Source: a virus. From it: 54,287 bases of DNA. Positions 5,648 to 32,845 of the stretch are shown here, piece by piece. Position numbers and translations under genes: made by a program. The notes beneath the pieces were generated by a model that was not told the origin of the DNA, did not search any database, and was given only the letters and a program-made list of their open reading frames with translations. Location: IMG/VR virus record IMGVR_UViG_3300017987_000113, positions 1-54,287 of that record; one strand, 5' to 3'. The number at the start of each line of letters is the position of its first letter. Position 1 is the stretch's first letter.

Positions 5648-7126
5648 CTACTGTGATCCCTGGTCTTCAAGTGTAAGGTACACTGAATCGCTCTGAACAG
5701 GGCGGAAGATTTTCTGGATCTTATTCCTGGAAATGATACCGGTCTGGAAAAGTACATGCTTATGTGAACCATCAACTGAGGTAGCCATTTCACCACCTTT
5801 ATCAATACCACTTACTGTACCGGTCTTAGGAGGCCTGAGCTGTACAAGCTCTACACCTTTATCGCCACCCTGAGTATTGCCCAGAGGAACAAAAATACCA
5901 TCCCAAGATCCTTTTCGTGTACCATCATCAAGATACATAGAAGCTCTTTCCTGGCTATCAAGCCAACGGTACCTTTTAGGTATGATCCTTACACCGTCAA
6001 CCTCATAGTAGCTATAGGTGTTGATAACACCCTTTGAAGCACCATCGCCTACTACGTTGTTATTCTGAGTAACAAACCCAGCATCACGTAATGCCTGTGA
6101 GAAACCAGAAACAGCTTTACGGCCACCCAGGAATACAATTTCCTGTAGACCATCCATACCGGCTCTGATATCAGCATCTTCCATAAGCGATTCAATGAAC
6201 TTCATTGTCCATTTGTTATAAGGATATTCATATGCACCGTCATTCTGGTGTATAACACCCTGACCGGCCATAACCTCACGGTTTTTCTTATCCTTCATCA
6301 ACACTTCACCATCCATACTGACCGTACCTTTACCCCAAATCATCCAGTATTCGTGATACTGTGCTGCACGTTTCATCATTTCATTCTGAGCATGGGTAAG
6401 GAAAGTCTGCTGGCCATTATGGATAGTCCATAATTTATCTTCTTTCATAGCGGCAGCTGTACCTGACCAGGAATATTTCAGCCTTTGAAGAGTCATGTAA
6501 GCGTGGCCCCAACCATCGAAGGTATATTTCTCAACACCTGTTTCGGAGAAGTCATGGATATCCATTGTTGATACGACTCCGATCTCATTGCCTTCAGCAA
6601 GCAGTGAAACATCTACGAAGTCTTCTTTTACGGTGGTAATCAGCTTTACTTCATATCTCCACGCATCACCGAATTCTACAGGAGGATTATCGTCATAAAT
6701 ATAAAGCTGTGTGTCGTTGTCGTTAAGTTCAAGGATCTCTTTTGGGCCCGCCCAGTTACTATCACAAAAGATGTAAAAGGGTGTCTGGTTAAAACCAGGC
6801 TGTGTCGGGTAGGTAGGAGAATAAAAAGTAGCACCCACATCAGGGTTACTTCTTATACGCAGTTTGCGTTTATCTGAACTCTTAATAGCGTACTGGACAT
6901 GATTCGACTTTACTACACGGTAGTTTTTATTTACCATGCCATCGAAAAGCCCGGTAGTCTTCATCCCTTTCACATTAAGAAGCGACGTAAGAGGAGATTC
7001 TTCCTCTTTCCACAACTCAAAAACTGTAGGGAGAATATCAGCGTTTGCTACGGCAGCGTCCATTAGACTGTGAGAGGATATAGACTCATTTGCAATATCT
7101 CTCGGCTGCCCCGGTAAATATCTCAT
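5648..7126 (-). CDS. Major capsid protein, HK97-fold candidate
   Basis: 492 residues, predicted alpha/beta without low-complexity sequence. It starts with a helix-rich arm (SISSHSLMDAAVANADILPTV), and has a central segment with many aromatic residues and a C-terminal domain (ELVQLRPP, then HKHVLFQTGI). Size, position right after a scaffold-like gene and portal, and lack of enzyme motifs support the capsid call. The length is typical of crAss-like capsid proteins (about 490-510 residues). No separate maturation protease is visible; the short N-terminal arm may be the part removed or ordered in the capsid. Confidence 0.75.
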   Translation of the reverse strand: MRYLPGQPRDIANESISSHSLMDAAVANADILPTVFELWKEEESPLTSLLNVKGMKTTGLFDGMVNKNYRVVKSNHVQYAIKSSDKRKLRIRSNPDVGATFYSPTYPTQPGFNQTPFYIFCDSNWAGPKEILELNDNDTQLYIYDDNPPVEFGDAWRYEVKLITTVKEDFVDVSLLAEGNEIGVVSTMDIHDFSETGVEKYTFDGWGHAYMTLQRLKYSWSGTAAAMKEDKLWTIHNGQQTFLTHAQNEMMKRAAQYHEYWMIWGKGTVSMDGEVLMKDKKNREVMAGQGVIHQNDGAYEYPYNKWTMKFIESLMEDADIRAGMDGLQEIVFLGGRKAVSGFSQALRDAGFVTQNNNVVGDGASKGVINTYSYYEVDGVRIIPKRYRWLDSQERASMYLDDGTRKGSWDGIFVPLGNTQGGDKGVELVQLRPPKTGTVSGIDKGGEMATSVDGSHKHVLFQTGIISRNKIQKIFRPVQSDSVYLTLEDQGSQ

Positions 7127-31494: not shown

Positions 31495-31521
31495 ATTCAT
31501 AGTTTTCAGATTTTAAGTTTA

Positions 31522-31553
31522 AGGAGGCAGTATAGTTACTGTCTCCTTTTTTT
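31522..31553 (+). terminator. Intrinsic terminator upstream of the RAMP-like gene
   Basis: AGGAGGCAGT / ACTGTCTCCT (one G-T pair) around a six-base loop followed by seven T. It is the third terminator-like element within 250 bases, so the gap 31070-31599 probably holds more than one short transcript. Confidence 0.75.
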
Positions 31554-31599
31554 ACGTCTTCAAGTTAATTTAATATATTACAAACCAAAATTATCTATT

Positions 31600-32235
31600 A
31601 TGTTATTAACTATTCCTAAAATTAAAAGCTTGGAGTATAGGTTTAAGATACGTAGTATCTCACCATACCTCCAGCACAAAATGAATGATCAAGACCTTCA
31701 AGAGTGGCTTGAGCACAGGGGTCATATCATCGAAAACAAAAGACAAAACATTCCTCACGAAATAATGGCTGATTTTCACAGCTATATTGATGAGGATGGT
31801 AAGTATTACTTTCCGACAAAACATCTCAAGCAATCGCTTGTTGGTGCCGGAAGACTGACTAAAGGAAAGGTAGGTAATTCTACACGATCACTCACAAATG
31901 TTGTAGCTGGTATGTGGAGAATAAAACCTGAAAGAATTTATATCGGTCACTGGGATAGTATTATGATTGAATCTGCAATAAATCACAGTGTAAAGGCCAG
32001 GGTGTTACCTATAAGACCTCAATGGGATTGTCTGGAATTTGAATTCTTCTTAACAGTAATGAACGACACTATGACAGATAAAACCGTCGTAAAGATCGTA
32101 CAGGACTCAGGACTATTTCAAGGGATAGGAAACTACCGGCCTGAACACAAGGGAGAGTTCGGTATGTTCGAGATTGTAGAAGCTGAAAGGCTGACAACAA
32201 AAGCAAAAGGAAGACCTAAGAAAACAGCTGCTTAA
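31600..32235 (+). CDS. Cas7/RAMP-like RNA-binding-fold protein
   Basis: 211 residues. The plan fits a RAMP (Cas7-like) fold: an N-terminal ferredoxin-like strand ending in ISPYLQHKM (19-28), an insertion (YYFPTKHLKQSLVGAGRLTKG, about 69-89), a second strand (RVLPIRPQWDCLEFEFFLTV, about 134-153) and a glycine-rich loop GLFQGIGNYRPEHKGEFG (171-188) as in RAMPs. Phages and plasmids carry a widespread family of such single-domain Cas7-like proteins whose function is not established. The C terminus is basic (KAKGRPKKTAA). It is monocistronic, flanked by terminators, and lies directly before the pentanucleotide array, which is a notable association. Confidence 0.5.
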   Translation: MLLTIPKIKSLEYRFKIRSISPYLQHKMNDQDLQEWLEHRGHIIENKRQNIPHEIMADFHSYIDEDGKYYFPTKHLKQSLVGAGRLTKGKVGNSTRSLTNVVAGMWRIKPERIYIGHWDSIMIESAINHSVKARVLPIRPQWDCLEFEFFLTVMNDTMTDKTVVKIVQDSGLFQGIGNYRPEHKGEFGMFEIVEAERLTTKAKGRPKKTAA

Positions 32236-32241
32236 TAGCAT

Positions 32242-32272
32242 AAAGGGGAGGCTTTAATAGTTTCCCTTTTTT
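32242..32272 (+). terminator. Terminator-like hairpin after the RAMP-like gene
   Basis: AAAGGG / CCCTTT with a 16-base spacer followed by six T. Read-through beyond it would transcribe the pentanucleotide array. Confidence 0.55.
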
Positions 32273-32845
32273 GATGTAATGTTTTGTGGTGTTGAGTACT
32301 TTAAAGCAACGTAGCGTATGGTGAAGTCCAGTTAAGCGAAGTATTGTATGGTTGAGTGTTTTTAACTTCATGTATGGTATTGTGAATTACAGCACCGTTT
32401 GGCGAAGTAGGGTGATGTATAGTATTTTGTGGTGTAATAAAGTAAAGTTCCGTCCTGTTATGCTATGTGCTGTACGGTAGGGTTATGTATTTTGAAGTCC
32501 AGTGAAGTTCTGCATAGTGATGTAATGTATAGTATTTTTATGTTATGTTATGTGGAGCAATGTAAAGTGTGGTTGTGTGTCGTATTTTTAACGTATTGTA
32601 TCGTCAGCTATAGTATGGCAGGGTTAGGTAAAGTTAAGTTAAGTGTTTTATGGTTATGTGAGGTATTGTAAGGTGTCGTTCTGTTAAGTTTTTTATAATA
32701 CTTCTTGTAGGGTGAGGTCTTGTACTGTAACGTAAGGCAAAGTAAAGTGTTTTATTGCTGAGTCTTGTGTGGTGTGGTAAGGTAAAGCAAAGCATTTTAT
32801 CGTGTAGCGGAGTATTGTCAAGTAAGGTAAACTATAGTATTTTTC
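32273..32845 (+). repeat. Degenerate NGYNN pentanucleotide array
   Basis: About 573 bases with a strict five-base period. A G followed by T (sometimes C) recurs every fifth base: at 32276-32356 in one phase, 32372-32582 shifted by one, 32593-32688 shifted again, then 32707-32837 back in the second phase. By my hand count about 75 of the 89 pentamers between 32401 and 32845 carry G at the set position, and most exceptions are runs of four to six T. These T runs are spaced at multiples of five: about 65, 65, 45, 50, 60, 45, 60, 45, 45 bases. The plus strand is poor in C and the other three positions vary freely. It is not coding: stops occur in all frames. Ends abut the terminator at 32272 and the A/T-rich leader of the gene at 32868. 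Confidence 0.9.

Follow-up and report, generated by a model that had tools for sequence, protein, structure and literature searches.

A probable phage-encoded VIPR locus with a pentamer guide array of three variable bases per unit

Introduction

VIPR systems were described in a 2026 bioRxiv preprint (PMC13142463, April/June 2026), the only description of them and the sole paper on such systems found in a literature search. According to that source, they consist of a small ancestral RAMP protein (Vipr), whose fold comprises an RRM core, a glycine loop and a thumb, and of guide RNAs (vrRNAs) containing 9–16 YNNGG repeats and, after these, a structured 3′ tail that does not vary. The NN bases of the vrRNA bind double-stranded DNA, one base of the target being skipped, and the system serves in inter-phage conflict through transcriptional repression. 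It was presented as the first RNA-guided gapped reading of DNA and as a likely ancestor of the CRISPR RAMPs. For all seven published types the repeat is given as GGY/NN "or a related consensus", the characterised one using a 1-nt skip; staggered arrays were reported for other types, and an accessory gene, vap, is given as typical (PMC13142463).

Here we analyze a five-base array found in a viral genome. The preliminary description of this DNA considered it a free-standing element of about 570 bases, not assignable to any known repeat class.

The pentamer array and the adjoining gene

The window, i.e., the whole stretch of DNA analyzed, is a 54,287-base IMG/VR virus record with portal, virion structural and DnaB-helicase genes. 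The five-base array, with units NNN-G-Y, lies in a non-coding gap and has the same orientation as the gene vipr, which ends 37 nt upstream of it. The features of the locus are as follows:

31521–31555, + strand: terminator-like hairpin closing the upstream gene, at the start of the vipr cassette (12-bp stem AAGGAGGCAGTA..TACTGTCTCCTT, then a T-run)
31600–32235, + strand: vipr, coding for a 211-aa predicted RAMP (Cas7-like) protein, phrog_4652 (PHROG match, AlphaFold2, Foldseek, tree)
32242–32270, + strand: strong terminator-like hairpin of 12 bp, running into a T-run, between vipr and the array (fold about −17 kcal/mol)
32273–32843, + strand: predicted vrRNA (guide RNA) array, NNNGY pentamers with T-runs between blocks (periodicity, alignment, pattern scan)
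32273–32297, + strand: block A, 5 units (may be partial)
32303–32357, + strand: block B, 11 units
32364–32423, + strand: block C, 12 units
32429–32488, + strand: block D, 12 units
32494–32533, + strand: block E, 8 units
32539–32583, + strand: block F, 9 units
32590–32644, + strand: block G, 11 units
32650–32689, + strand: block H, 8 units
32704–32748, + strand: block I, 9 units
32754–32793, + strand: block J, 8 units
32799–32838, + strand: block K, 8 units
32839–32844, + strand: last T-run separator
32358–32363, 32424–32428, 32489–32493, 32534–32538, 32584–32589, 32645–32649, 32690–32695, 32749–32753 and 32794–32798, + strand: other T-run separators

The strict five-base period noticed in the preliminary description was borne out by the numerical analysis. 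The G-periodicity power was 29.7 at period 5.00, whereas 1000 shuffles gave values averaging 1.0 and never above 7.4, and the G autocorrelation across the array was 0.42, 0.40, 0.35 and 0.37 at lags of 5, 10, 15 and 20 bases. When the record was scanned in 300-base segments, the period-5 power peaked over 32251–32551 and was far lower in the rest of the 54 kb. A phase-tracking alignment of 121 units, begun at 32241 and thus slightly wider than the array, gave G in 98/121 units, followed by T in 104/121 or C in 14/121, the remaining three positions being mixed. The same alternation of fixed and free bases had been perceived earlier, as had the three single-base phase shifts (+1, +1 and −1) and the punctuation by T-runs. 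The latter consists of T-rich units (ATTTT, TTTTT, GTTTT) that keep the phase and delimit blocks mostly 8–12 units long (one block has 5). The conservation of G-Y is high in each block, and the 3′ boundary of the blocks approximates WWAGT followed by the T-run; of 50 block ends, 32–35 have T at any one of the positions +2 to +5 after the block. The pattern GY(NNNGY)x7 occurs 14 times in the forward direction of the whole record, with 0 matches in reverse and 0 in the backwards control.

There is no tandem consensus over the length of the array, only two short tandem stretches being detected, and no inverted repeats. The window contains 0 Rfam matches at gathering score, and no DNA similar to the array region was found among cultured phages.

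Concerning the 211-aa protein, it matches phrog_4652 (annotated as "unknown function") with an E value of 2.9e-11, and neither Pfam nor NCBIfam provided a match. Its AlphaFold2 model has a pLDDT of 91.5, and a Foldseek search with this model gave a best E value of 6.4e-7 and 111 matches at E ≤ 1e-3. The PDB matches listed are chains of CRISPR complexes (Csm3, type VII Cas7, Cmr4 and Cas7-11 where named), and for this reason the protein is called a RAMP, the predicted fold being that of a minimal Cas7-like protein. It carries the conserved C-terminal loop GIG..RP...G..G. The array is non-coding, as had been stated, but it does not stand alone: the gene at 31600–32235 and the array make up the first and second halves of one locus. 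The nucleic-acid-binding protein with a five-base step, previously invoked as the likely reason for the period, has a candidate in the adjacent Cas7-like protein.

The two terminator-like hairpins at 31521–31555 and 32242–32270 are similar in sequence (AAGGAGGC.. and AAAGGGGAGGC.., respectively) and flank vipr, as if it were a cassette.

Comparison with known systems

The closest described system is that of Escherichia phage SUSP1 (NC_028808). Its Vipr, AVU07_agp039, matches phrog_4652 with an E value of 1.4e-96, the neighbour agp038 (vap1) belongs to phrog_5926, and NNGGT arrays occupy the intergenic gaps flanking agp039. The window Vipr and agp039 could be placed in one family tree, their match being at the profile level only. 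Since SUSP1 agp039 belongs to phrog_4652 and has NNGGT arrays in the adjacent gaps, the window locus is, very probably, a phage-encoded VIPR locus. Therefore, the earlier opinion that no known repeat class fits the array does not hold, as the vrRNA arrays of VIPR systems (PMC13142463) do fit.

Both loci share a phage-borne phrog_4652 RAMP with adjacent pentamer guide arrays, in which Y follows a fixed G and the remaining bases are hypervariable. There are, however, several differences. The SUSP1 units are NNGGY, with two free bases, whereas those of the window are NNNGY, with three; the GGY triplet is absent from the window, where only GY is fixed. The SUSP1 guides are separated by structured tails, whereas in the window successive blocks are closely packed, with nothing but T-runs in between, and a structured 3′ tail is not visible. 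The vap1 gene of SUSP1 (phrog_5926) has no visible counterpart in the window. The window blocks have 8–12 units (5 in one case), and the published guides have 9–16 repeats (PMC13142463).

With respect to the RAMPs of Class 1 CRISPR systems (Cas7/Csm3, type VII Cas7), the likeness lies in the predicted fold and in oligomerization along a guide RNA at regular nucleotide intervals. The differences are a step of five rather than six, guides with short alternating stretches of fixed and free bases, and the lack of CRISPR repeats and of other cas genes. CRISPR-Cas loci are recognized by palindromic or direct repeats of about 23–47 nt with unique spacers and by several cas genes; the array contains no such repeats, and the proteins scanned gave no Pfam or NCBIfam match to cas genes, in agreement with the earlier judgement that this is not a CRISPR array. 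Nor is it an iteron, as had also been judged: iterons, plasmid centromeres and origins consist of near-identical copies of one site, with a Rep or ParB-type protein, while in the array only GY recurs. This, together with a RAMP as the neighbour, leaves unsupported the former suggestion of a replication-origin, segregation or phasing element.

A five-base step in RNA is also known from the sites of TRAP (trp RNA-binding attenuation protein), (G/U)AGNN in blocks of about 11 units. The array of the window resembles them in the step and in the length of its blocks, but the fixed bases are AG in TRAP sites and GY in the window, TRAP forms a ring whereas the candidate partner here has a predicted RAMP fold, and the free bases of the window appear to carry target-like information.

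Pentamer arrays and Vipr proteins across IMG/VR

IMG/VR was scanned for GT(NNNGT)x7, so that the first array loci were selected by the GT pattern, unlike the clade relatives considered below. Among the matches listed, many contigs contained several separate matches, and the loci that were scored displayed long arrays of period five with varying fixed bases (NNGGY, NNCGY, NNTGY, CNNGT, TNNGT, GNNGT) and with conserved spacers separating the blocks. Of 40 independently found array loci, 31 encode a protein of the Vipr family at or near the array, as does the window, in most cases no more than 50 nt away; the next family reached 8. In this count all ORFs within the fetched flanks were compared, proteins were linked by BLAST, and L037 and L120 represent the same array. 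The other IMG/VR branches (CNNGT, TNNGT, GNNGT, NNCGY, NNTGY; e.g., L028, L037, L065, L086, L087, L101 and L112) share with the window the protein family, the period and a spacer between blocks, but they keep at least one further fixed base.

Some loci showed peculiarities. L031 carries at 1695–2123 (− strand) an NNNGT array whose phase shifts by +1 at intervals of about 5–10 units, beside an ORF, a very divergent Vipr, that ends in a GIG.WR...GRF-like motif. L216, a Bacteroidota genome with a related vipr, the only one of 394 sampled genomes besides that of L148, has GC-dominated arrays (NNGGC, CNNGC) at 1297–1467 and 2083–2253, on both strands. In L148 (6677–6730 and 6798–6850) and in L057 (967–1923, reverse strand), the spacers between vrRNA blocks resemble pieces of tRNA, with a T-arm TGGTTCGATTCC..GG and an acceptor-like stem, which suggests processing of the guides by RNase P/Z; neither ARAGORN nor Rfam called a tRNA in them. 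In this respect, the main text of PMC13142463 mentions hammerhead ribozymes rather than tRNA-like spacers.

A clade of Vipr proteins with GY/NNN arrays

Relatives were sought with a protein-only query formed by the window Vipr and that of L047, with no array in the query. This returned 12 viral relatives with 37–47% identity, one of which (L141) is the L047 contig again, and one more in a Draconibacterium MAG (Bacteroidota). The same search with the window Vipr alone gave no match, and a 29-row family alignment was too diverse to be used as a query. Pentamer arrays were present at vipr in 13/13 relatives and ran in a single direction; the backward control gave none. When these relatives were checked for the plain coding gene that might have stood in place of the array, a period-5 array was found there in all of them.

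In the family tree, the window groups with L147 (support 98/97) within a 14-row Vipr clade (98/99), along which the pairing of array and vipr is maintained across about 40% identity. The arrays of 14/14 clade members are GY/NNN, with 0.03–0.38 bit at the base preceding G (position −1) and no other fixed position. In contrast, 27/28 other Viprs compared keep a further fixed base, with 0.67–2.0 bits, the exception being L049. Within about 6 kb, the only gene family common to the 14 loci is vipr, so that a vap gene is not evident in the clade. In the window and in L147, the next block begins directly after the T-run.

The clade-wide GY/NNN consensus, together with the neighbour statistics presented below, goes beyond the account in the main text of PMC13142463, although the GY/NNN type may be among the "related consensus" types of its fig. 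S17.

Several observations were made in individual members of the clade. The single-guide members L144 (6618) and L145 (5952 and 6608) show, in place of the T-run, a 3′ tail approximating GGCCTYYGG..GTGGGGTT, possibly structured like that of SUSP1. The vipr genes of L138 and L139 are 86% identical in aligned DNA and their guide arrays are entirely different, so that guides turn over much faster than the Vipr protein. In L137, a 121-kb viral contig, a tmRNA gene with a 26-aa tag (5700–6101) lies about 500 nt after vipr.

Neighbour statistics of the variable guide bases

A target-free test was applied, on the premise that variable bases copied from targets, or selected to match them, should follow the dinucleotide odds of phage DNA wherever they are adjacent in the target. 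As a positive control, the NN pair of canonical arrays was found to follow the genomic neighbour odds in CNNGT (z = 4.8), NNGGY (3.8), TNNGT (3.4) and GNNGT (2.5), which agrees with the model of PMC13142463; the small NNCGY and NNTGT sets showed no neighbour signal in the NN pair.

For the GY/NNN clade, the test was run with within-guide shuffles after removal of duplicate guides. A signal was obtained for the pair (−2, −1), with z = 3.7, and for the pair formed by −1 and the −3 base of the next unit, with z = 3.8 (P = 2.5e-4 each, 471–513 units). Six to nine base pairs were examined, and both P values survive correction for that number. The (−3, −2) pair gave z = 0.6, and the control pairs were likewise without signal. 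The signal of the pair that flanks GY persisted (z = 3.3) in nine loci, excluding the window and the loci holding duplicated guides or related to them. Adjacent-base mutation bias is an unlikely source of it, because GY separates both bases in the array.

These data suggest, as far as guide sequences can tell, that in this clade the base opposite the canonical 1-nt skip also comes from the target. Most simply, the target would be read in words of N(−2)N(−1)N(−3′) while GY is bulged out, i.e., the two bases of the CNNGT type plus the base that faces the skip. A (−3, −2) signal is expected to be weak if this pair falls at a codon boundary (expected z = 1.7), so the data fit alike a fully contiguous target and one with three read bases and a break. 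Tentatively, and at a little under an even chance, the code may be codon-sized with zero skip, so that an unbroken target would be read by three bases per Vipr subunit, the guide being interrupted by the bulged GY; in this the clade would depart from the 1-nt skip of the characterised system.

Codon-phase tests of the clade guides were inconsistent with one another. Taking the concatenated triplets as codons, the reverse frame 0 of the window was stop-free in 11/11 blocks, but there was no stop depletion clade-wide and this was discarded as evidence. All codon registers scored above the null because the neighbour signal is common to them; the best two put the wobble at −2 and the homologous guide pairs put it at −1, so that no register is claimed.

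Search for targets

Fetched phage and genome DNA amounting to 2.3 Mb, 43 genomes of the family of L148's genome and the IMG/VR guide scans yielded no target; in the last of these, one hit was judged to be due to chance. This hit, of block C in L174, agreed at 20/20 two-base positions over 10 units, the next 2 units failing and the third bases agreeing in 4/10, as at random. It is considered a chance match because 1–2 such 18-base hits are expected in an estimated number of about 1e11 searchable positions. When contiguous guides were compared by BLAST with cultured phages and with 393 genomes belonging to the same order as L148's genome, only weak AT-rich matches appeared, some of them straddling guide joins.

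Guides of two different phages, L139 (6821–6935) and L146 (6795–6894 and 6930–7049), share AAA AAT CAR CAY GTN, as if one conserved gene were targeted. Searched as a conserved coding target, this gave 10 IMG/VR hits; neither the third bases nor the flanks supported any of them.

Discussion

By analogy with the characterised system, the array at 32273–32843 would encode about ten guide RNAs (vrRNAs) of 8–12 pentamers each, with the T-run after each block marking the 3′ end of the guide. One Vipr subunit would sit on each pentamer, holding the fixed G-Y and presenting the variable bases to double-stranded DNA, and in the clade these would spell a word of three bases: two from one unit and, past the bulged GY, the first of the next. 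The resulting repression would silence genes of competing phages or prophages, as in PMC13142463. While the present analysis yielded the array, the family and predicted fold of the protein, the conserved association of array and protein, and the clade consensus with three free bases, transcription of the vrRNAs, RNP formation, DNA binding and repression of competitors are carried over from that work and would apply to the extent that the analogy holds.

The alternative with most weight is that this is the same VIPR system with the third free base unread: the contact with a formerly fixed base would have been lost, the position would drift, and two bases per unit would be read with a 1-nt skip. 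This is possible, though we give it distinctly less than an even chance. It accords with the GGY/NN-related consensus and the 1-nt skip reported so far (PMC13142463), and no target was found with a matching third base. Homologous guide pairs of L141 and L146 differ mostly at −1, but −3 and −2 were the positions used to score their alignment, which biases the comparison. Against it, the neighbour correlation spans −2, −1 and the next −3, across GY, and an unread, drifting base should not display genomic odds. It is also conceivable, but highly improbable, that the array is a non-functional relic or that it yields vrRNA-like decoys that poison the Vipr of a rival phage. The lack of targets would be in line with that, but vipr is intact, with its conserved residues, array and gene have been kept together across about 40% identity, and every block conserves G-Y.

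More improbable still is that the array acts without RNA guides, as an origin, a centromere or an element for phasing or packaging to which a filament- or array-binding protein attaches, in essence what the preliminary description proposed in view of the strict spacing and the in-phase T-runs. The array adjoins a RAMP gene in phages whose neighbouring genes are otherwise unrelated, the consensus varies among Vipr branches while the period stays at five, the free bases carry genomic neighbour statistics, and the published relative makes vrRNAs (PMC13142463). As to a low-complexity repeat born of replication slippage and in neutral decay, the superficial look of a five-base repeat and the two short tandem stretches could evoke it, but it is scarcely credible. 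Tandem copies would decay everywhere, whereas the array retains two positions and leaves three free along some 110 units, a pattern seen in 14 divergent loci, and the pairing of array and vipr is unbroken in the relatives. The earlier claim of selection for the five-base spacing is upheld.

Returning to a VIPR system with three target-derived bases per unit, if this is true, the clade would be a case of evolution in the code itself, and a small protein would attain higher specificity per unit. Besides, the neighbour-statistics test infers which guide bases are target-derived without any known target, and, because it recovered the expected result in the four main canonical consensus types, it should be usable on the codes of other Vipr branches.
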